A stretch of DNA of 64,000 nt, taken from NCBI GenBank assembly GCA_021846985.1, contig JAJZVX010000011.1, positions 1-64,000 on the forward strand, in the 5' to 3' direction. Positions 23 through 45,404 of this stretch are shown here, piece after piece; positions within the stretch are counted from its first letter, which is position 1; each line of letters begins with the position of its first letter. The stretch is from Acidobacteriota bacterium. GTDB taxonomy: Bacteria; Acidobacteriota; Terriglobia; Terriglobales; Acidobacteriaceae. The notes under the pieces are model-generated. The model was not told where the DNA came from, made no database searches, and saw only the letters and a program-made list of their open reading frames with translations. Both the position numbers and the translations under genes were made by a program.

Positions 23-38
23 TGTGATCCAAATCACA
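23..38. promoter_or_regulatory. CRP/FNR-class operator before the nifJ operon
   Basis: The sequence TGTGATCCAAATCACA is a perfect 16-bp palindrome apart from its 6-nt centre and matches the classical CRP consensus TGTGA-N6-TCACA. It lies about 80 bp before the first gene of the plus-strand group that leads to nifJ. A -10-like TAGAAT follows at 49-54. Four more GTGA-N6-TCAC elements occur in the window, all before redox genes. The protein that binds is not known; a CRP/FNR-superfamily regulator is inferred. Confidence 0.7.
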
Positions 39-7056: not shown

Positions 7057-8478
7057 CTAACGAACCAGCCGGTCCAGTACCTCGCCGTTAGAACTGACCA
7101 GCGAGAGAACCAGCGGCATCTGGCCGAAGGCGTGGGTGGAGCAACTCAGGCAGGGATCGAAGGTGCGGACCACCGCCTCTACGCGATTGAGCGCGCCTTC
7201 GGTAAACTTTCCGTCCTTCACATAGGCCTTCGACGCCTGCAGAACGCCCCTGTCCATGGCTCTGTTGTTGTGGCCGGTGGCGACCACCAGGTTGGCCCAG
7301 ACAATCTTGCCGTTTTCGTCCACCTTGTAGTTGTGCACCAGGGTGCCGCGCGGCGCTTCGATCTGGCCGGCCCCCTCCAGACGGTTGACGCCCGCGGAGG
7401 CGCGGACATGCGTGTCCAGAATCAGCGGATCGGCAAGAATCCGTTCGATCTTCTCAATGCCGTAGAGGGCTTCGATGAGCCGCGCATGATGATAGTGGAA
7501 GGAGCTTTCGACGGGGCCCTCGGCGATCTGCTTGAACTCCGCCAGTTCCTTGTCCGCCAGCGGCGTCCCCATCTGCTTGACGATGTTCAGGCGCGCCAGC
7601 GGCCCCACGCGGTAGCAGCCCTGTGGATAGCCAAGCGGCTTGTAGTAGACGAACTTCGTATAGGAATAGGACTCCGCGGCCTCGCCAAACACCTCGGAAA
7701 AATGATTGGCGGTGATGTCGTCTTCGACGATTTCGCCCTGGGGGTCGATGAAGCGCAGCGCGCCGTCGGTAAATTCGATGGACTCATCTTCGTTGATGAG
7801 ACCAAGATAATGCGACGGAAAGTTGGCAAAAACCTCGATCTCCTGCTGGAAGTTGGAGGCAATCTGCTTGTAGGCGGTGAGGGCCAGCTTGAGGTTGGCA
7901 TAGGCCTCCGGGATCATGGCCAGAATCTCATCGCGGTGGGCGGAGGAAAGCGGCTCAGTCACGCCGCCCGGAATCACCCAGCCCGAATGAATGCGCTTGC
8001 GGCCCAGCAGCTCGATGATGTGCTGTCCGAAGCGGCGCAGGCCGATGCCGGCGCGCCCAAGCTCGGGGCGGGCGGCGGCCACCCCAAAAATGTGCCGGGT
8101 CGCAGGGTCGGCGTCCATCCCCAGAAGCAGATCAGGCGAGGACAGATGGAAAAAGCTGAGAGCATGAGACTGGACCATCTGGGCCAGGTTCAGCATGCGC
8201 CGCAGTTGCGCGGCCGTGTGTGGAATGCGCACCGACATGATGGCCTCGCACGCCTTCGCGGAGGCCACCAGGTGCGAAACCGGGCAGATGCCGCAGATGC
8301 GCGCCATGAGGCCGGGCATCTCATAGAACGGACGCCCCTCGGAAAACTTTTCAAAGCCGCGCACCTGGGTCACATGAAAGTGCGCGTCCTCAACCTCGCC
8401 CTTGCTGTTGAGCTGGATGGTGACCTTGCCGTGTCCTTCGAGGCGTGTGACAGGATCGATGGTAATCGTTTGACTCAT
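7057..8478 (-). CDS. hoxH: NAD-reducing hydrogenase large subunit
   Basis: 473-residue large subunit holding the NiFe active site. The two cysteine pairs that bind nickel are both present: RICGICP (Cys62, Cys65) and DPCLSCSTH (Cys443, Cys446, then His449). After His449 there is a 24-residue tail of the kind cut off during maturation, so this is a maturable enzyme. N-terminal [12 protein letters not shown] is typical of the family. Company with hoxE, F, U and Y marks it as a group 3d bidirectional enzyme linking H2 and NAD(H). It is separated from hoxY by 15 bp. Confidence 0.95.
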
Positions 8479-9737: not shown

Positions 9738-11407
9738 GCCACCACCTCCTGCGATACGGCGGGCGCGAAGACGTCGGCTTCCGCGCCGGCGTGCATATGG
9801 CAAACTCCGGCGGGACACCGCTTGTTGGCAATGTGCTCAAGGTACTCGCTGCGGAAGTACTTCAGCGTGCTGAGCACGGGGTTGGGGGCTGTCTGGCCCA
9901 ACCCGCACAGGCTCGTCTCCTTCACCGTGACGCACAGATCCTCGATCAGCGCCAGATCGTCCATCGTCCCCTTGCCCGTGCAGATGCGCGTTAGAAGCGT
10001 GTACATCTGCGCCGTCCCCGCGCGGCAGGGTATGCACTTGCCGCACGATTCGGTCATGCAGAACTCAATGAAAAAACGGGCCACATTGACCATGCAGGAG
10101 GTGTCGTCCATGACGATCATGCCCCCGGAACCCATGATCGACCCCGCCGCCATCAGCGCGTCATAGCTGACGCCGATGTCCAGCATCTCCGCCGGAATGC
10201 AGCCGCCCGAGGGACCGCCCGTCTGAACAGCCTTCAGAGTGTGGCCTGGCGGCACTCCGCCCCCGATCACTTCGATGATCTGGCGCAGCTTGATGCCCAT
10301 GGGCACCTCGACAAGACCGGTATTGGCAATCTTGCCGGTGAGCGCGAAAACCTTCGTGCCTTTGCTGCGCTCCGAGCCCATGCTGGAAAACCACTTGCCG
10401 CCATTGCGGATGATGGGCGGGATGTTGGCGTAGGTCTCCACGTTATTGATCAGCGTGGGCTTGCCCCATAGGCCGCTTACCGCAGGATACGGCGGTCGCG
10501 GTCTGGGCGTGCCTCGCTTGCCTTCGATCGAGGCAATCAGCGCCGTTTCCTCTCCGCACACAAACGCTCCCGCGCCCAGGCGGATTTCAATATCGAAGCT
10601 GAAGGGCGTATTGCAGATGTTGATGCCCAGAAGGCCCCGGCGGCGCGCCTCGCGCAGCGCCATGGTGAGCCGGGAGACAGCGATCGGATATTCGGCGCGG
10701 ACATAAATGTAGCCCTTGCTGGCGCCCACGGCATAGGCGGCCAAAGCCATCCCCTCGATCACGCGGTGCGGATCGCCTTCCATCACGCTGCGATCCATGA
10801 AGGCGCCCGGATCGCCCTCGTCGCCGTTGCAGACCACGTACTTCACGTCGCCGGCCGCCTTGGCTACGGTGCCCCATTTCAAGCCGGTTGGGTAGCCGCC
10901 GCCGCCGCGTCCACGCAGGCCGCTCTCCGTTATGCGGTGGATCACGCCGCCCGGCGTCATCTCCATCAACACGGTCACAAGGGCCTTGTACCCCTCCCGC
11001 GCGATATAGTCGTCGATCTTTTCCGGATCAATATAGCCGGCGTTTTCCAGCACCACCCGCATCTGGCTGTCGAAGTGCTCGTTCAACTCGCACTGCAACT
11101 CTGCGACGGGCTCGCCGCCCAGACTATCGACAATGCCCTGCGCGCGGCCGGGGCTCACGTGCCCGTAAAGCGTCTTGTCGGGATCCACCCGCACAAGCGG
11201 CCCGTGCGAACAGGGCCCCATGCACCCGGTGCGGCGTACCAGTACTTTCTTTCCAGAAGCCTCCGCGCTTCGCAGCAGCGCGTCGCGCAGCTTGTCCGAG
11301 CCCTGGCTGGCGCAGGCAAGATCCATGCACACGCTCACTTCGTAATCGAAATTCGCGTTCTCCCGCCGGACGCTCTCCGCTATCTGTTCCAGTTCCTCGA
11401 TCGTCAT
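9734..11407 (-). CDS. hoxF: bidirectional hydrogenase NADH-binding subunit, NuoF-like
   Basis: About 557 residues. The N-terminus is a thioredoxin-like 2Fe-2S domain (CMDLAC and GCMGPC pairs). The rest is NuoF-like: FMN and NADH sites ([27 protein letters not shown]), the SLBB region, and a 4Fe-4S site ([10 protein letters not shown] plus SLCGLGQ). A last CPAGVC motif sits near the C-terminus. This is the diaphorase that exchanges electrons with NAD(H). ATG at 11407 is preferred over the in-frame start at 11419 because it makes a 4-bp ATGA overlap with hoxE. Confidence 0.94.
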
Positions 11408-11901
11408 TCCACTGCCCACCTCTCCAGTTGCTCGATCAACTGTTCAGAAGTTCTCTCGCCGGTCACTTCTCCATCTGCCAACATCACCGGCGCGCGGCTG
11501 CACGCGCCTACGCAGCGGGCCGTCATCAGGCTCACCTGGCCGTCCGCGGTCGTGTGCCCCGGCACAATTCCCAATCGCTCTTCGGCCGCAGCAATCAGCT
11601 TGTCGGCGCCCTTGATGTAGCAGGCGGTGCCGGCGCACACGGTCAGCGTGTGCTTGCCGGGCGGCTTCAGACTGAAGTAGTGGTAGAAGGTCGCCACTCC
11701 GTAGGCCTGGCTCAACGGCACGCGCAGCGAAAGCGCCACAAATCGAATGGCGTTGTCGTCCAAGTAGCCGAAGGAAGACTGCACCGCATGAAGCGTCTCA
11801 ATCAGGGCATGGCGGGCAAAGCCGTTCTTGCGCATGGCGCCATTCACGATCTTCCATCGTTTATCGTCACTGGGCAACGGCGGTGGGATGAATGCGGACA
11901 C
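11404..11901 (-). CDS. hoxE: bidirectional hydrogenase subunit, NuoE-like
   Basis: 165-residue thioredoxin-fold 2Fe-2S subunit. The four ligands are visible as CAGTAC and CVGAC (C-x4-C, then C-x3-C), exactly as in NuoE. The GTG at 11901 is chosen: it has GGAGGG 4 nt upstream and gives the usual length; the open frame runs on to another GTG at 12024, but that adds about 40 residues unlike the family. First gene of the six-gene minus-strand hox operon, with both CRP-like palindromes lying upstream. Confidence 0.9.
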   Translation of the reverse strand: MSAFIPPPLPSDDKRWKIVNGAMRKNGFARHALIETLHAVQSSFGYLDDNAIRFVALSLRVPLSQAYGVATFYHYFSLKPPGKHTLTVCAGTACYIKGADKLIAAAEERLGIVPGHTTADGQVSLMTARCVGACSRAPVMLADGEVTGERTSEQLIEQLERWAVE

Positions 11902-12001
11902 GATACCCTCCCAAATCTGAAACGGCACACGCCCCGAGTGGCTCCAGAGCGCGAGTTCCAACTGTGATTCTAATCTTAGTGTGCGCGCGATGGCTGCTAC
12001 C

Positions 12002-12015
12002 GTGACACCAGTCAC
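12002..12015. promoter_or_regulatory. CRP/FNR-class operator before hox, proximal
   Basis: GTGACACCAGTCAC: GTGA and TCAC half sites with a 6-nt spacer. It lies about 100 bp before the chosen hoxE start. With the -10-like TAAGAT at 11978-11973, its centre would sit near -42 of hox transcription, the position from which CRP/FNR proteins usually activate. The binding protein is inferred. Confidence 0.62.
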
Positions 12016-12118: not shown

Positions 12119-12132
12119 GTGACCCCTATCAC
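12119..12132. promoter_or_regulatory. CRP/FNR-class operator before hox, distal
   Basis: GTGACCCCTATCAC: GTGA and TCAC half sites with a 6-nt spacer, 117 bp (about 11 helical turns) from the proximal site. The two sites are therefore on roughly the same DNA face. It could support cooperative activation of hox or serve the divergent TauE-like gene 420 bp away. Confidence 0.6.
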
Positions 12133-39703: not shown

Positions 39704-42241
39704 ATGCCTGGCATCTCTCGCCGCGACCTGCTTTGCTCCGGACTGGCTCTTTCCGCTTCCTCCCTCGTGGCCCGCTCGGCCTGGGCCCGCACCGCCGCGC
39801 TCATGGGCGGCTATCCAAACGCAGCTTCCGCTGAGGCTCTGGCCGCCGTCGCTCCGCGCCAGCAGCTCCTCTTCGACTTTGGATGGAAGTTCAAATTCGG
39901 CAATGGCGCCGATCCAGCCCGCGACCTGAACTTCGGCTACAGCCAGAGCGACTTTGCCAAGACCGGCGAATTCGAGTTTGCCAAGGTCGGCTATGACGAC
40001 TCCGGCTGGCGCACGCTCAACCTGCCCCACGACTGGGCGGTCGAACTGCCCTTCGTCCGCGACGAAGAGCTCAGAAGTCACGGCTACAAGCCCCTCGGCC
40101 GCCGTTACCCGGAAACCAGCGTGGGCTGGTATCGCCGCGTCTTTGAGATTCCCGCCTCCGACGCGGGCCGCCGCATCACCGTCGAGTTCGACGGCGTCTT
40201 CCGCGATGTCCTGCTCTTCGTCAACGGCTGCTTCATCGGCCGCAACGACAACGGCTACGCGCCCTTCCGCTTCGACATCACCGACTTTCTTGCCGTGGGC
40301 GCAAAGAACTGCATCGTTGCCCGCGTCGACGCCAGCTTCGGCGACGGCTGGTTCTACGAGGGCGCCGGCATCTATCGTCACGTCTGGCTCACCAAAACCG
40401 ATGCGCTCCACCTCGGCAAATGGGAAAGCACCGTTCGCTCCACCTTGAACGGTGACTCGGCCACCCTGGAACTGGCCACCATCGTTCAGAACCAGGGTAA
40501 ACAGGCGGAGACCGCCGCCGTCCGCTGGCAGATCCTCGACGCCCATGGCAAGACCGTAGCGACCGCCGAGGCCGCGCCACAATCCGTGGACGTGGATGCC
40601 GGTGCGCACTTCAAGGCTTCGGCCACGCTCGCCAATCCCGCGCTCTGGTCGGTCGACGCGCCCAACCTTTACACCGCCATCGCCACTTTGGAGGCCGGCG
40701 GCGCGCCGCGCGACGCCGAGCGCGTTGCCTTCGGCATCCGTACAGCGCGCTTCGATGCCCAACACGGCTTCTTCCTCAACGGCAAATCCATCAAGATTCA
40801 GGGCACCTGCAACCACCAGGACCACGCCGGCGTTGGCGCGGCTGTTCCCGACGCCCTCCAGTGGTACCGCCTCGCCGTGCTGCGCGAGATGGGCTGCAAC
40901 GCCGTCCGCACCTCGCACAACATGCCCACACCCGAGTGGGTCGAGGCCTGCGACCGCATGGGCATGATGATGATGTGCGAGACCCGGCAAATGAGTTCCA
41001 GCCCCGAAGGCCTTGCCCAGCTTGAGGCCATGGTCAAGCGCTATCGCAACTCGCCCTCGATCATCATCTGGTCCATCGGCAATGAAGAAGGCCAGATGCA
41101 GGAACAGATGGCCGAGGAGGGCGCCAAAGTCGGCGCCACCATGGTGCGCCTCTGCCACGAGCTCGACCCCACCCGCGTCGTCTCCGCCGCCGTCAACGGC
41201 GACAACAAAGAGGGCGTCTCCGATGCGCTCGACATTGTCGGCTTCAACTACAACCTGCAACGCCCCGAGCCCTACCACAACGCCCATCCCACACGCCCCA
41301 TCTACGGCTCTGAGACCTCCAGCGCCATTGCCACCCGCGGCGAATACACCACTGACCCGCTGCGCAACATCGTGAACGACTACAACGTTGCCGTCCCCTG
41401 GGGCGAATCGGCAGAGGAGTGGTGGACCTACTACGGCACGCGCGCGTGGGAGGCGGGCGGATTTGCCTGGACAGGCTTCGACTATCGCGGCGAGCCCACG
41501 CCCTACGGATGGCCTTCCATCAATTCACAGTTCGGCATCGTGGACATGTGCGGATTCCCCAAAGACACCTTCTTCTACTACAAGGCGTGGTGGGGCAAGC
41601 AGCCATCCCTGCACCTGTTCCCGCACTGGAACTTCGAAGGACGCGAAGGCGACGAGATTCCTGTCTGGGTCTATTCGAACCTCGACGAAGTGGATCTCAT
41701 CGTCAACGGCAAAAGCCAGGGACGGCAGAAAGTGCCCCATCTTGGCCATGTCGAGTGGAAGGTCCGCTATGAGCCTGGATTCATCGAGGCCCGCGGTTAC
41801 AAAGCCGGCAAGCTGGCCCTCACCGAAAAGCGGGAAACCACCGGCGCGCCTGCCGCCATCAAGCTCTCCGCCGACCGCGCACAGATCGACGCCGACGGAG
41901 AAGACCTCGCCATCCTCACCGTCCAGGTCCTCGACAAGCAGGGCCGCGCCGTGCCCACCGCCATGAACCTCATCGGCTTCAAGGTCTCCGGCCAGGGCGT
42001 GCTCATTGGCGTGGGCAACGGCGACCCCAACTGCCAGGAAAGCGACAAGGAGCCGAAACGTTCCCTTTTCAACGGCTTTGCGCAGGCCATCGTGCAGTCC
42101 ACCCAAAAAGAGGGAGAGATTCGCATCGAGGCGGTCAAGGAAGGATGGGACGGTCCCGAGCTTACCCCGGCCAGGCTGATCATCCAAACCAGGGCCGTGC
42201 AGCCGCGACCGGCAGTCGCTGTCGCCAACCAAAAAAGTTGA
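39704..42241 (+). CDS. Tat-exported GH2-family glycoside hydrolase (beta-galactosidase-like)
   Basis: About 845 residues with a Tat signal at the start (SRRDLLCSGLALSASSLVA). GH2 layout: sugar-binding domain (LPHDWAVELPF, GWYRRVF), Ig-like domain, TIM barrel, and a C-terminal DUF4982-type/Ig-like end. Acid/base Glu461 is in SIGNEEG and nucleophile Glu537 in YGSETSSA. The activity is most likely beta-galactosidase, but related exo-beta-glycosidases cannot be excluded. ATG at 39704 has AAGGGGA 6 nt upstream. A possible hairpin (42250-42274) with a nearby T6 run follows the gene. Confidence 0.92.
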   Translation: MPGISRRDLLCSGLALSASSLVARSAWARTAALMGGYPNAASAEALAAVAPRQQLLFDFGWKFKFGNGADPARDLNFGYSQSDFAKTGEFEFAKVGYDDSGWRTLNLPHDWAVELPFVRDEELRSHGYKPLGRRYPETSVGWYRRVFEIPASDAGRRITVEFDGVFRDVLLFVNGCFIGRNDNGYAPFRFDITDFLAVGAKNCIVARVDASFGDGWFYEGAGIYRHVWLTKTDALHLGKWESTVRSTLNGDSATLELATIVQNQGKQAETAAVRWQILDAHGKTVATAEAAPQSVDVDAGAHFKASATLANPALWSVDAPNLYTAIATLEAGGAPRDAERVAFGIRTARFDAQHGFFLNGKSIKIQGTCNHQDHAGVGAAVPDALQWYRLAVLREMGCNAVRTSHNMPTPEWVEACDRMGMMMMCETRQMSSSPEGLAQLEAMVKRYRNSPSIIIWSIGNEEGQMQEQMAEEGAKVGATMVRLCHELDPTRVVSAAVNGDNKEGVSDALDIVGFNYNLQRPEPYHNAHPTRPIYGSETSSAIATRGEYTTDPLRNIVNDYNVAVPWGESAEEWWTYYGTRAWEAGGFAWTGFDYRGEPTPYGWPSINSQFGIVDMCGFPKDTFFYYKAWWGKQPSLHLFPHWNFEGREGDEIPVWVYSNLDEVDLIVNGKSQGRQKVPHLGHVEWKVRYEPGFIEARGYKAGKLALTEKRETTGAPAAIKLSADRAQIDADGEDLAILTVQVLDKQGRAVPTAMNLIGFKVSGQGVLIGVGNGDPNCQESDKEPKRSLFNGFAQAIVQSTQKEGEIRIEAVKEGWDGPELTPARLIIQTRAVQPRPAVAVANQKS

Positions 42242-42404
42242 CTCTGCGCGCCGCGCGCTTGCAGATTGCGCGGCCTGCGTCACTTTTTTAGGGCTTTTAA
42301 TGCCGTGCGCCGCCCTTGGCCGTCAAACAGATACGTGTGTCTGCCCGCGTCCGCGCTGTCGCACAAAGCGGAACACCAGAGGCTAACGCCTTTGCTGTGT
42401 GCGG

Positions 42405-42434
42405 GGGACAACTACCGCGAAGAGTGACTATAAT
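42405..42434 (+). promoter_or_regulatory. putative korAB promoter
   Basis: A perfect -10 box TATAAT at 42429-42434 lies inside the first CRP-like palindrome. GGGACA at 42405-42410 is a passable -35 at 18-bp spacing. If this is the true promoter, one palindrome covers the -10 and the other lies just past the start site, which would favour repression by the bound regulator. Confidence 0.4.
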
Positions 42435-42437
42435 CAC
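42424..42437. promoter_or_regulatory. CRP/FNR-class operator before korAB, upstream
   Basis: GTGACTATAATCAC: GTGA and TCAC half sites, 6-nt spacer. About 90 bp before korA. It overlaps a TATAAT box. Same element type as in front of nifJ and hox. Confidence 0.62.
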
Positions 42438-42439
42438 AT

Positions 42440-42453
42440 CTATGCTTGCATAG
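42440..42453. promoter_or_regulatory. palindrome between the two korAB operators
   Basis: CTATGC-TT-GCATAG is a perfect inverted repeat lying exactly between the two CRP-like sites. It may be a third operator of another protein, or part of a larger nucleoprotein site. Confidence 0.4.
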
Positions 42454-42467
42454 GTGATGATAATCAC
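42454..42467. promoter_or_regulatory. CRP/FNR-class operator before korAB, downstream
   Basis: GTGATGATAATCAC: GTGA and TCAC half sites, 6-nt spacer, 30 bp centre to centre from the upstream site (close to three helical turns). About 60 bp before korA. The pair suggests cooperative binding. Confidence 0.62.
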
Positions 42468-42525
42468 TTCTGCATACGAATAGGCTTCAAGCTTCTCACA
42501 ACTTACAGGAAGGGATTCCCGCCAA

Positions 42526-44367
42526 ATGGCGACTGGAGACCTCGCCCTCGGTCAGGAGCAGGGCACAATCAGCACTCGGCAGCGCGTCGTCAACGATTTC
42601 AGTATCAACCTAGCAACGGTGAACGGCTCCGGTTCGCAATCCGCCAATAGCGTTCTGCTGAAAGCCATCTTCGGAATGGGTGTCCCCGTCAGCGGGAAAA
42701 ACCTCTTCCCCTCGAACATCGCCGGCCTTCCCACCTGGTTTCTCATTCGCGCCAGCAAAGACGGCTATGTGGCTCGTAAGCGCGATACTGAGATCCTCGT
42801 CTCGCTCAACGCCGAAACCGCTCGCCAGGATGTGATGGCTCTGCCCGTCGGCGGCGTCGCTATCTACGAGGAACAACTCAACCTCAAACAGTACCGCGAC
42901 GACGTCTTCTTCTATCCCGTTCCATTCGACAAAATTACCGCGTCCATCTGTTCTGAGGTCAAGCTCCGCAAACTGGTCAAAAACATGGTGTATGTCGGCG
43001 TGGTTGCGCAGATCCTCGCCATCGACCTGGGCGTGGTCGAACACAGCCTGAAAACGCAGTTCGCTAAGAAGCAGAAGGTCTTTGACCTCAACTTTGGCGC
43101 CGTCAAGGCTGGCTTTGACTATGCCGCCGCCAACTTCGTCAAACAGGACCCCTACTTCATCGAACCCATGAACGAGACCACCGGCAAAATCATTATCGAC
43201 GGCAATGCCGCCTGCGCCATGGGCGCGGTCTTCGCCGGCGTCACCGTGGTCGCCTGGTATCCCATCACCCCGTCCACCTCCGTCGTCGAGGCCACCAGCG
43301 ACCTGCTCAAAAAACTCCGCGTCACGCCTGATGGCAAAGCCTCCTTTGCCGTGGTGCAGGCGGAAGATGAGCTGGCGGCCATTGGCATGGTCCTCGGCGC
43401 AGGCTGGGCCGGCGCGCGTTCCATGACCGCCACCTCCGGCCCCGGCATCTCGCTCATGGCCGAGTTCTCCGGGCTCGGCTACTTCGTCGAGGCGCCCGGC
43501 GTCATTTACGACGTGCAGCGCGCCGGACCCTCCACAGGCATGCCCACCCGCACCCAGCAGGCCGACGTCCTCTCCATCGCCTTTCTCTCCCACGGCGACA
43601 CCAAGCATGTCATCCTCTTTCCCGGTTCGGTCAAGGAGTGCTTCGACTTTGGCAGCGACGCCTTCGACCTTGCCGAGCGCCTGCAAACCCCGGTCTTTGT
43701 GCTCACCGATCTCGATCTCGGCATGAACAACTGGATGTCCGACCCGTTCGAATATCCCGCCAAGCCGCTGGATCGCGGCAAGGTGCTCACCGCTGCCGAT
43801 CTTGATCGCCTAGGCGGCTTCGCCCGCTACCGCGATGTCGATGGAGACGCCATCGGCTGGCGCACCCTGCCCGGCACGCCCCACCCCAAGGCCGCGTACT
43901 TTACCCGTGGTTCCGGCCACAACGACGCCGCCGGTTACACCGAGAAGCCCGAGGAGTACACCGCCATCATGGACCGCCTCGCGCGCAAGTTCGACACCGC
44001 GCGCAACCTGGTTCCCGGCCCCATCACCGTGGCGAATGGCACTTCCATGATCGGCTTCCTCGCCTACGGCACCACCGACTTTGCCCTGCGCGAAAGTCTC
44101 GACCAGATCCAGAAAGAGCACGGACTCGCCGTGGATTACATGCGGATCAGGGCCTTCCCCTTTACGCGCGAAATTCACGACTTCGTCGCTTCGCACGAGC
44201 GCGTCTATATCGTCGAGCAGAACCGCGACGCGCAATTGGCAAGCCTGCTGAAGCTGGACCTGCCAGCCGCCCAGACAACCAAGCTGCGCAGCATCCTCCA
44301 CTACAATGGATTGCCCATTGACGCCCGCAGCATCACGGAAGAATTCGCCGCCAAGGAGGGCCTCTAA
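42526..44367 (+). CDS. korA: 2-oxoacid:ferredoxin oxidoreductase, fused gamma-alpha subunit
   Basis: 613 residues. Residues 1-190 are the gamma domain (GSGSQSANSVLLKAIFGMG), and from about 215 the alpha part (IIDGNAACAMGAVFAGVTVV, YPITPSTSVVEA) with the CoA/pyrimidine-binding domain; STGMPTRTQQADV is another family hallmark. It forms, with KorB, a CoA-dependent 2-oxoglutarate (or other 2-oxoacid) oxidoreductase, a reversible step of the TCA or reductive TCA cycle. GGAAGGGA lies upstream of ATG 42526. Its stop overlaps the korB start (TAATG). The substrate is inferred. Confidence 0.92.
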   Translation: MATGDLALGQEQGTISTRQRVVNDFSINLATVNGSGSQSANSVLLKAIFGMGVPVSGKNLFPSNIAGLPTWFLIRASKDGYVARKRDTEILVSLNAETARQDVMALPVGGVAIYEEQLNLKQYRDDVFFYPVPFDKITASICSEVKLRKLVKNMVYVGVVAQILAIDLGVVEHSLKTQFAKKQKVFDLNFGAVKAGFDYAAANFVKQDPYFIEPMNETTGKIIIDGNAACAMGAVFAGVTVVAWYPITPSTSVVEATSDLLKKLRVTPDGKASFAVVQAEDELAAIGMVLGAGWAGARSMTATSGPGISLMAEFSGLGYFVEAPGVIYDVQRAGPSTGMPTRTQQADVLSIAFLSHGDTKHVILFPGSVKECFDFGSDAFDLAERLQTPVFVLTDLDLGMNNWMSDPFEYPAKPLDRGKVLTAADLDRLGGFARYRDVDGDAIGWRTLPGTPHPKAAYFTRGSGHNDAAGYTEKPEEYTAIMDRLARKFDTARNLVPGPITVANGTSMIGFLAYGTTDFALRESLDQIQKEHGLAVDYMRIRAFPFTREIHDFVASHERVYIVEQNRDAQLASLLKLDLPAAQTTKLRSILHYNGLPIDARSITEEFAAKEGL

Positions 44368-45404
44368 TGGCAACCGCAACCCCCGCTCCCAAGCTCAACC
44401 GCATCGGCCTTCCTGTTCTTGACTATCGCGGCGGCAAGTCCACGCTCTGCGCCGGCTGCGGCCACAACGCCATCTCCGAGCGCATCATCGACGCCATGTT
44501 CGAGATGGGCGTCGAGCCCGAGCGCGTCATCAAAATGAGCGGCATCGGCTGCTCGTCCAAAAGCCCCGCTTACTTCATGAGCCGTTCGCACGCCTTCAAC
44601 GCCGTGCACGGCCGCATGGCGGCTGTCGCCACCGGCGCCGTCCTGGCCAACCATACCCTTACCGCCATTGGCGTCTCCGGCGACGGCGACACCGCCTCCA
44701 TCGGCATGGGCGGCTTTGTGCACATGCTCCGCCGCAACGTGCCCATGATTTACATCATCGAGGACAACGGCGTCTACGGTCTCACCAAGGGCCAGTTCTC
44801 CGCCACCGCCGACCTGGGCTCCAAACTCAAAACCGGCGTCATCAACGATCTGCCCGCCATCGACACCTGCGCGCTCGCCATTCAGCTCGGCGCTACCTTT
44901 GTCGGCCGCTCCTTCTCCGGCGACAAAAAGCAGCTCCTCGCCATGCTCAAGGCGGCCATTGCCCACAAGGGCACTGTCATGCTCGACGTCATCAGCCCCT
45001 GCGTCACCTTCAACGATCATGAAGGGTCCACCAAAAGCTACAAGTTCATGCAGGAGAACGACGAGCCTATCAACGAGGTCGGCTTCGTGCCCAGCTTCCA
45101 GGAAATTGAGGTCGATTACAGCTCCGGCGAGATCTTGGACGTTCAAATGCACGACGGATCCAGTCTTCGCCTGCGCAAGCTCCTCGATGACTACGACCCC
45201 ACCAACAAGGCCAACGCCGTCCGCACTCTCATGGAGGCGCATGAGAAAAATGAAGTCCTCACCGGCGTCTTCTACATCAATACCGGCCAGCCTACTTTCA
45301 TCGATCTGTTGAATGTGGTTGACGAGCCCCTGGCCACGCTACCGGAGTCCGTCACCCGTCCGCCCAAGTCCGCGCTCGATGCCCTCATGGCCAACCTCCG
45401 CTAA
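44367..45404 (+). CDS. korB: 2-oxoacid:ferredoxin oxidoreductase, beta subunit
   Basis: 345 residues holding thiamine diphosphate and one 4Fe-4S cluster. CAGCGHN near residue 28 gives two cysteine ligands, GIGCSSK near 65 a third; the thiamine motif is GDGDTASIGMGG to IEDNGVYGLTKGQ. The fourth cysteine is likely that of ISPCVTFN. Pairs with KorA in a two-subunit enzyme without a dedicated ferredoxin (delta) subunit, so a free ferredoxin is the acceptor. A clear terminator follows. Confidence 0.94.
   Translation: MATATPAPKLNRIGLPVLDYRGGKSTLCAGCGHNAISERIIDAMFEMGVEPERVIKMSGIGCSSKSPAYFMSRSHAFNAVHGRMAAVATGAVLANHTLTAIGVSGDGDTASIGMGGFVHMLRRNVPMIYIIEDNGVYGLTKGQFSATADLGSKLKTGVINDLPAIDTCALAIQLGATFVGRSFSGDKKQLLAMLKAAIAHKGTVMLDVISPCVTFNDHEGSTKSYKFMQENDEPINEVGFVPSFQEIEVDYSSGEILDVQMHDGSSLRLRKLLDDYDPTNKANAVRTLMEAHEKNEVLTGVFYINTGQPTFIDLLNVVDEPLATLPESVTRPPKSALDALMANLR

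Follow-up and report, generated by a model that had tools for sequence, protein, structure and literature searches.

A candidate CRP/FNR-type operator over the -10 box of korA and its opposite geometry at hox in an acidobacterial genome

Could one regulator act on the 2-oxoacid:ferredoxin oxidoreductase genes korAB and on the hydrogenase (hox) genes from opposite positions? The question is raised by the region upstream of korAB in the window, as the whole stretch of 64,000 nucleotides analysed here will be called. An earlier note on this DNA had described two CRP-like sites 30 bp apart before korAB, the first containing a perfect TATAAT, and had proposed that the same protein may switch the hydrogenase and korAB in opposite ways. 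Both observations were borne out: GTGA-N6-TCAC palindromes occupy positions 42424-42437 (site 1) and 42454-42467 (site 2), 30 bp from start to start, and TATAAT stands within site 1 at 42429-42434. The features of the korAB region are as follows.

42405..42410, plus strand: -35-like hexamer GGGACA of candidate promoter P1, 18 bp before TATAAT, its columns kept in relatives
42424..42437, plus strand: site 1, GTGACTATAATCAC (arms GTGAC and ATCAC around TATA), candidate CRP/FNR-type operator atop the -10 box
42429..42434, plus strand: -10 box TATAAT of P1, expected transcription start near 42441
42440..42453, no strand assigned: inner palindrome (arms CTATGC and GCATAG, loop TT)
42454..42467, plus strand: site 2, GTGATGATAATCAC (arms GTGAT and ATCAC around GATA), second candidate operator, centred at about +20 from the P1 start
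42459..42464, plus strand: GATAAT inside site 2, possible -10 box of a rival promoter P2, spacing counted by hand
42526..44364, plus strand: korA, fused gamma/alpha subunit of 2-oxoacid:ferredoxin oxidoreductase (POR, POR_N; TIGR03710)
44367..45401, plus strand: korB, beta subunit (TPP_enzyme_C, PFO_beta_C)

The korA promoter and the sites around it

A scan of positions 42200-42560 returned a single sigma-70-like promoter, GGGACA-18-TATAAT (42405-42434, 10 of 12 matches, 0.1 expected), and the window as a whole contains five GTGA-N6-TCAC sites versus 0.54 expected in shuffled sequences, none of 100 shuffles reaching five. To the window's own korA upstream region we added those of the best 80 orthologues, giving 81 regions; the named genomes among these relatives all belong to Acidobacteria/Acidobacteriaceae and include Terracidiphilus, Occallatibacter, and Silvibacterium. 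TATAAT was present in 71 of the 81 regions, versus a mean of 3.0 after shuffling. Anchored on this hexamer, 39 regions had at most two mismatches to the 14-mer GTGACTATAATCAC, and another 32, mostly from more distant relatives and some from near ones, kept TATAAT with at least three mismatches, the arms being decayed or missing. The remaining 10 regions lacked TATAAT; in a few of them, the match began inside the gene.

The candidate operator over the predicted korA -10 box is retained while its surroundings have diverged to background, as seen most clearly in 49 distinct promoters of nearer relatives whose regions span 200 bases or more. TATAAT, 18 bp downstream of the -35-like hexamer in the window, was present in all 49, and the 14-mer was exact in 30 and one base off in 10 (40 of 49 with at most one mismatch). 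Mean pairwise identity reached 0.85 and 0.71 in the two arms of site 1 and 0.62 in the -35-like hexamer, versus 0.30-0.33 in the flanks; the identity of the -10 core is fixed by the anchoring on TATAAT. A search within the genus gave a match in 48 of 59 genomes, and 18 of the 30 loci listed had the exact 14-mer and six had one mismatch, many of these loci being the same promoters as in the set of 80 orthologues. Across 200 genomes of the family, the exact 14-mer was found at seven places in six genomes, and five of these places, among them that of the window, immediately precede korA; a few chance occurrences are possible in this amount of DNA.

No peak of TA-hexamers was observed 22 or 23 nt past the site at korA (TA in one and two of 41 promoters, z 1.7 and 0.7, respectively), and a rise of the score at offset 27 (z 5.4, TA in four of 41 promoters) was taken as the AT-rich leader. 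Since TATAAT outlasts the palindrome in 32 of the 81 regions, the -35-like hexamer is kept, and a downstream TA-hexamer is missing, P1 is taken as the korA promoter, and TATAAT inside site 1 is very probably its -10 box, in agreement with the earlier note. A class II promoter 41 bp past site 2, which that note had considered as the contrary case, found no support in the sequence. Comparison of the sequences thus places the operator across a conserved candidate -10 box, and, TATAAT being retained without the arms in many regions, the promoter appears more widespread than the operator.

Site 2 fits the GTGAT-N4-ATCAC class that is enriched in the genome (see below), and site 1 fits it in one half only. 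The nearest neighbour of the window's korA on a quickly built tree was the L032 locus (SH-aLRT 94, just under the 95 mark). This sister lineage (L032/L185) likewise carries a pair of sites at a spacing of 32 bp, and the downstream site of the pair has one mismatch in an arm; both spacings correspond to about three helical turns. Among the korA relatives compared, a closely spaced second site was otherwise absent; at L013, a second site is present but lies 74 bp upstream.

The inner palindrome was said to lie exactly between the two sites. It is present at 42440-42453, but it is not quite centred, adjoining site 2 directly and starting 2 nt after site 1. Perfect inverted repeats with 6-bp arms and a loop of 0-4 occur 139 times in 64 kb, so that about 0.009 would be expected in the 16-bp gap, a figure calculated post hoc. 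The palindrome was absent from the sister L032 and from the other korA upstream regions examined. As a third operator it was rejected: its nearest matches in the window, its own reverse strand aside, had three mismatches, no better than in shuffles. It is weak evidence, without support beyond the window. A direct repeat, TGCATA, flanks site 2 at 42447-42452 and 42471-42476, the first copy being within the inner palindrome. An RNA hairpin formed in the leader by site 2 was considered and set aside, the moderate fold (z -2.4) being expected of any palindrome, and no Rfam match was found in the korA leader (42200-42600).

The hox promoter and sites of the same class in the genome

At hox, the arrangement is different. 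The relevant features are listed here.

12002..12015, minus strand: hox proximal site, GTGACTGGTGTCAC, centred at -42.5 relative to TAAGAT
11973..11978, minus strand: probable hox -10 hexamer TAAGAT, 23 nt after the proximal site
12119..12132, minus strand: hox distal site, GTGATAGGGGTCAC, a palindrome of the same class
11407..11901, minus strand: coding part of hoxE, predicted start GTG after GGGAGG
7060..8478, minus strand: hydrogenase large subunit of the hox cluster (NiFeSe_Hases)

Homology to HoxE in most orthologues begins near residue 36-40 of a longer open reading frame, and the site at 12002-12015 therefore lies outside the gene. hoxE was found in 27 of 33 genomes searched, and a GTGA-N6-TCAC site is located within 250 bp upstream in the 27 orthologous loci. 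In 25 of these 27 (all but L152 and L154), a TA-hexamer stands 22 or 23 nt past the site, and the -10 score peaks at offset 23 with z of about 8, which is only a guide for related sequences. Measured from the predicted -10 boxes, the site thus has the class II position (about -41.5) in 25 of 27 orthologues, and at -42.5 in the window it sits where the earlier note had put it. The last base of the hox TA-hexamers is mostly not T, and these are therefore weak -10 boxes. The hox sites start with GTGAC in 25 of 27 loci and conform to GTGAC-N4-GTCAC in 21. A degenerate site, GTGATTCTAATCTT (11964-11977), overlaps the hox -10 hexamer and the bases just after it. The best NCBIfam match of the large subunit was VhuA (389.6 bits, cut-off 800), and the gene order is that of the NAD-linked Hox type.

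The window forms part of contig C18 of its own genome (G000, 3.79 Mb), in which GTGA-N6-TCAC occurs at 89 places versus 26 for a reversed control, and GTGAT-N4-ATCAC at 16 versus two. One of the 16 is a duplicate, as contig C11 ends in the sequence with which C18 starts. Outside the window, the pattern GTGAYNNNNATCAC was found at 31 places (26 in 20 regions, then five more), and one extra site brought the total to 32, of which 30 were intergenic according to a simple gene finder. Pfam matches among the neighbours in the first 20 regions comprised cytochrome bd oxidase (cydA), FeoB, acetyl-CoA hydrolase with VOR, and phosphoketolase, as well as H+-pyrophosphatase, ferredoxin, cytochrome c assembly proteins, multihaem cytochromes, citrate synthase, ATP synthase B, NIR_SIR, TusA, Usp, and others. 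Ankyrin repeats, a FadL-type protein, and some genes without a match fall outside any anaerobic theme; many predicted anaerobic-type genes are nevertheless preceded by such candidate sites. A further site of the class stands at the edge of the window.

24..37, plus strand: site GTGATCCAAATCAC, before aldo/keto reductase and PFOR genes; this stretch recurs at the end of contig C11, there with feoB pointing away from it

Given the repeat between the two contig ends, one common site probably lies between feoB and the divergently oriented aldo/keto reductase-PFOR genes.

The distance from site to promoter was evaluated in 34 site-gene directions of the genome's sites outside korA and hox, with the last five sites left out. 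TAnnnT was present 22-23 nt downstream in eight of them, versus zero to three for other pairs of offsets sharing neither 22 nor 23. Class II spacing is therefore the sole enriched arrangement, though a minority one: 26 directions, that of cydA included, lacked TAnnnT at this distance. A TAnnnT embedded in the site was seen in none of the 34 directions, and among the sites compared the embedded -10 box was found at korA only.

Several loci of this set have features of their own. Three sites, 67 and 64 bp apart, precede a tusA-like gene with an FAD/4Fe-4S oxidoreductase (L099:1902-2046, G000:C4:40601-40745); CATACA precedes the first and the second site, and CATCAA precedes the third. An operon for acetyl-CoA hydrolase, VOR, and a branched-chain aminotransferase, with a glutamate dehydrogenase-like gene recognised by eye (L206:629-6999, G000:C48), lies behind a class II-spaced site and is likely an amino-acid fermentation unit. 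A site of this class also lies upstream of three universal stress protein genes (L103, L108, L109); such genes are known targets of some oxygen regulators elsewhere.

A candidate regulator

Four proteins of the genome scored above the cut-off for a Crp-type helix-turn-helix. Two of them, Reg1 (G000:C48:48007-48717, minus strand) and Reg2 (G000:C8:7264-7953), have the recognition helix RETVTR, which we take to be of CRP type and which the other two lack; a third candidate, on contig C12, is a VRELISR-type protein. In Reg1, both PF00027 (cNMP-binding-like) and PF13545 (HTH_Crp_2) were above cut-off, and the best PDB matches were chains 4cyd, 4byy, and 3r6s, presumably GlxR of Corynebacterium. 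The system resembles CRP and corynebacterial GlxR in the GTGA-N6-TCAC palindrome, which is the CRP/GlxR consensus, and in the RETV-type helix, but differs from them in the anaerobic-type gene set and in four cysteines of Reg1 (C13, C16, C25, and C64) that were invariant in all 30 sequences compared (Reg1 and 29 homologues, Reg2-type included).

Three of these, C13, C16, and C25, form an N-terminal cysteine cluster of the kind expected for the [4Fe-4S] centre in Fnr. The position of the fourth Fnr ligand was not matched in Reg1: the nearest candidate, C112, is Cys in only 19 of the 30 sequences, and C64 is invariant instead. Reg1 thus differs from E. coli FNR, whose fourth ligand is Cys122, in having its fourth invariant cysteine at residue 64. 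Fnr proteins are further characterised by a TTGAT half-site and an E..SR recognition helix, unlike the present case, in which the enriched genome sites are GTGAT-N4-ATCAC, the helix is RETVTR, and korAB is a putative target. Against the NCBIfam Fnr model PRK11161, Reg1 scored 60.6 bits, far under the cut-off of 228, and it is therefore described here as FNR-like in its likely role and not as a member of the Fnr subfamily. The regulator is likely a member of the CRP/FNR family that combines four invariant cysteines with a CRP-type helix; together with the anaerobic-type gene set, the cysteines would point to a redox or oxygen signal rather than cAMP.

The joint occurrence of Reg1 and the korA operator was tabulated for 51 genomes, those of 50 of the 80 korA loci and the window's own, counting Reg1 at identities of at least 75% (a limit chosen after seeing the table) and the 14-mer with at most one mismatch. 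Both were present in 22 genomes and neither in 24, with Reg1 only in three and the operator only in two, an agreement in 46 of 51 that is uncorrected for kinship. A phylogenetically controlled test of the association contained only two or three independent pairs and was not significant; with so few pairs, the agreement is not counted as proof of co-evolution of Reg1 and the operator. In the discordant genomes with Reg1, the korA arms were decayed (L030, Reg1 84% identical; L039, 97%, partial) or missing (L048, 76%), and the operator without Reg1 in L020 and L037 may perhaps be due to gaps in the MAGs. L061 has a distant korA (70%) yet carries both Reg1 and the operator. Terracidiphilus gabretensis (L043), listed as aerobic in the part of PMC5900883 available, has neither.

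Two armless korA promoters, L018 (identical to the promoter of L179) and L160, have a near-site, GTGGTCCAGATCAC or GTGGCTCAGATCAC, adjoining GGGACA; the best Reg1 relative in the L018 genome is only 33% identical. Around Reg1 itself (L108, G000:C48:45700-52600), a cNMP-domain protein with no listed helix-turn-helix and a Usp gene are each preceded by a site, and autoregulation through these nearby sites is possible. At L121-L124, a site follows the Reg1 coding sequence instead, at a distance of about 1.1 kb.

Opposite control of korAB and hox: proposal, alternatives, and significance

The explanation that we prefer, and hold to be reasonably probable as a whole, is that one CRP/FNR protein represses P1 via site 1 and activates hox and other genes. 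korAB would be transcribed from P1, and a CRP/FNR-family dimer, probably Reg1, would occupy site 1 and cover the -10 box, so that P1 would be shut whenever the regulator is in its DNA-binding form, probably at low oxygen. Site 2, at about +20 and about three helical turns downstream, would be a second, better-matching operator for the same protein, strengthening repression and adding a roadblock, a trait common to the window and the sister lineage. This protein would also bind about 41-42 bp before the transcription start of hox and of some other genes, and activate them from there. Comparison of promoters gives good support to the predicted position of P1 and to the opposed geometries of the korAB and hox sites, and this suggests an opposite, oxygen-type switch of korAB and the hydrogenase. 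From sequence alone, we infer the direction of control, the oxygen or redox signal, and Reg1 rather than Reg2 as the binder.

An alternative, which we regard as unlikely, is that there is no common switch, either Reg2 or the VRELISR-type protein of C12 binding at korAB, or another paralogue at hox. The recognition helix of Reg2 is identical to that of Reg1, and the prevailing hox form, GTGAC-N4-GTCAC in 21 of 27 loci, differs from the GTGAT-N4-ATCAC form most enriched in the genome; against this stands the agreement between Reg1 and the korA operator in 46 of 51 genomes, with kinship as a confounder.

Activation of korAB seems rather improbable. Here, site 1 would be a class II site (-40.5) for P2, whose -10 box would be GATAAT in site 2, and site 2 would provide negative feedback at high levels of the regulator. 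Counted by hand, 21 nt separate site 1 from GATAAT in the window, and in the sister L032 23 nt lie between the upstream site and TATAAT (-42.5), both within class II tolerance, and a spacing of 22-23 nt is used in eight of the 34 other site-gene directions of the genome. However, no -35-like hexamer could be recognised by eye for P2, whereas P1 combines a perfect -10 box with a conserved -35-like hexamer, and the other operator-bearing korA promoters show no -10-like peak 22-23 nt downstream. A more elaborate possibility, to which we give little credence, is that in the window and its sister the two sites form a same-face array in which low occupancy activates P2 from site 1 and high occupancy of both sites shuts it off, the regulator being an oxygen-sensing CRP/FNR protein whose cysteines follow a new layout (C-x2-C-x8-C plus C64); ferredoxin-dependent 2-oxoglutarate oxidation would then peak at intermediate oxygen.

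A reading of the arms as promoter elements recognised by sigma (an unusual extended -10 and discriminator) would account for their exact coincidence with the -10 box but is very improbable, as TATAAT survives arm decay or loss in 32 of 81 korA regions and the same half-sites occur at other genes without an embedded -10 box (TAnnnT in none of 34 directions). Two further binders were set aside: Rex, since its motif has A after GTGA in the arms and the sites here carry C or T, and RedB of Rhodobacter capsulatus, since its motif is reported, in the accessible part of PMC9603854, as AT-rich and non-palindromic, hence asymmetric. RedB and FnrL of that species are CRP/FNR regulators whose control of energy metabolism is partly shared and partly opposed, according to the available portions of PMC9603854 and PMC9603517.

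Repression of P1 and activation of hox by one CRP/FNR protein would follow a principle known from E. coli. In the available text of PMC3688515, FNR activates with its site at about -41.5 (within 4 nt of this position at 19 of the 23 activated promoters whose start is known) and represses from sites ranging from -125.5 to over +1. As far as that text goes, the likeness to korAB and hox lies in one protein activating near -41.5 and repressing over the promoter, and in anaerobic-type targets. Among the matches listed in a search of open-licence PMC papers, there was no study of an FNR-type regulon in Acidobacteriota. Control by position as predicted here would be a new instance in Acidobacteriota, possibly one with a biphasic tandem operator.

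With regard to the enzyme, korA scored 556.8 bits against NCBIfam TIGR03710 (cut-off 482.75), which assigns it to the KorAB type, and korB scored 213.1 bits against TIGR02177, under the cut-off of 261.9. We infer 2-oxoglutarate to be the main substrate. The N-terminal domain of 2-oxoglutarate dehydrogenase E1 (PF16078) was not detected in any of 30 genomes of the genus, a set that includes the window's own and 16 genomes with a completeness of 90% or more, and was present in six of 14 control genomes; given its absence from the genus, KorAB probably serves the oxidative step of the TCA cycle. In Mycobacterium tuberculosis, a two-subunit 2-oxoacid:ferredoxin oxidoreductase, KorAB, completes the oxidative TCA cycle (PMC2773412, available part), and the likeness to the present case consists in the two subunits and the absence of PF16078 from the genus. 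The comparison is by enzyme only, the candidate CRP/FNR-type operator over the -10 box being described for korAB here. A switch between isozymes, with a four-subunit KOR activated and KorAB repressed, was rejected: the operon preceded by the L111 site includes genes for a VorB-type subunit (531.5 bits, cut-off 399) and a branched-chain aminotransferase, and therefore looks like VOR and not KOR.

Acidobacteriota are common in soils and peats, and, according to the accessible part of a peat study (PMC9599518), Terracidiphilus MAGs with group 3d and other [NiFe] hydrogenases rose under constant anoxia. The sites described here yield a concrete list of genes and a candidate regulator, and the korA promoters form a natural series, from a -10 box without an operator to a single and then a tandem one, in which the evolution of an operator atop a promoter can be followed. 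Repression of korAB during induction of the hydrogenase, PFOR, and bd oxidase would make sense physiologically if oxygen is indeed the signal. The arrangement suggests that these bacteria may trade a ferredoxin-linked step of the TCA cycle for hydrogenase and fermentation genes as oxygen falls.
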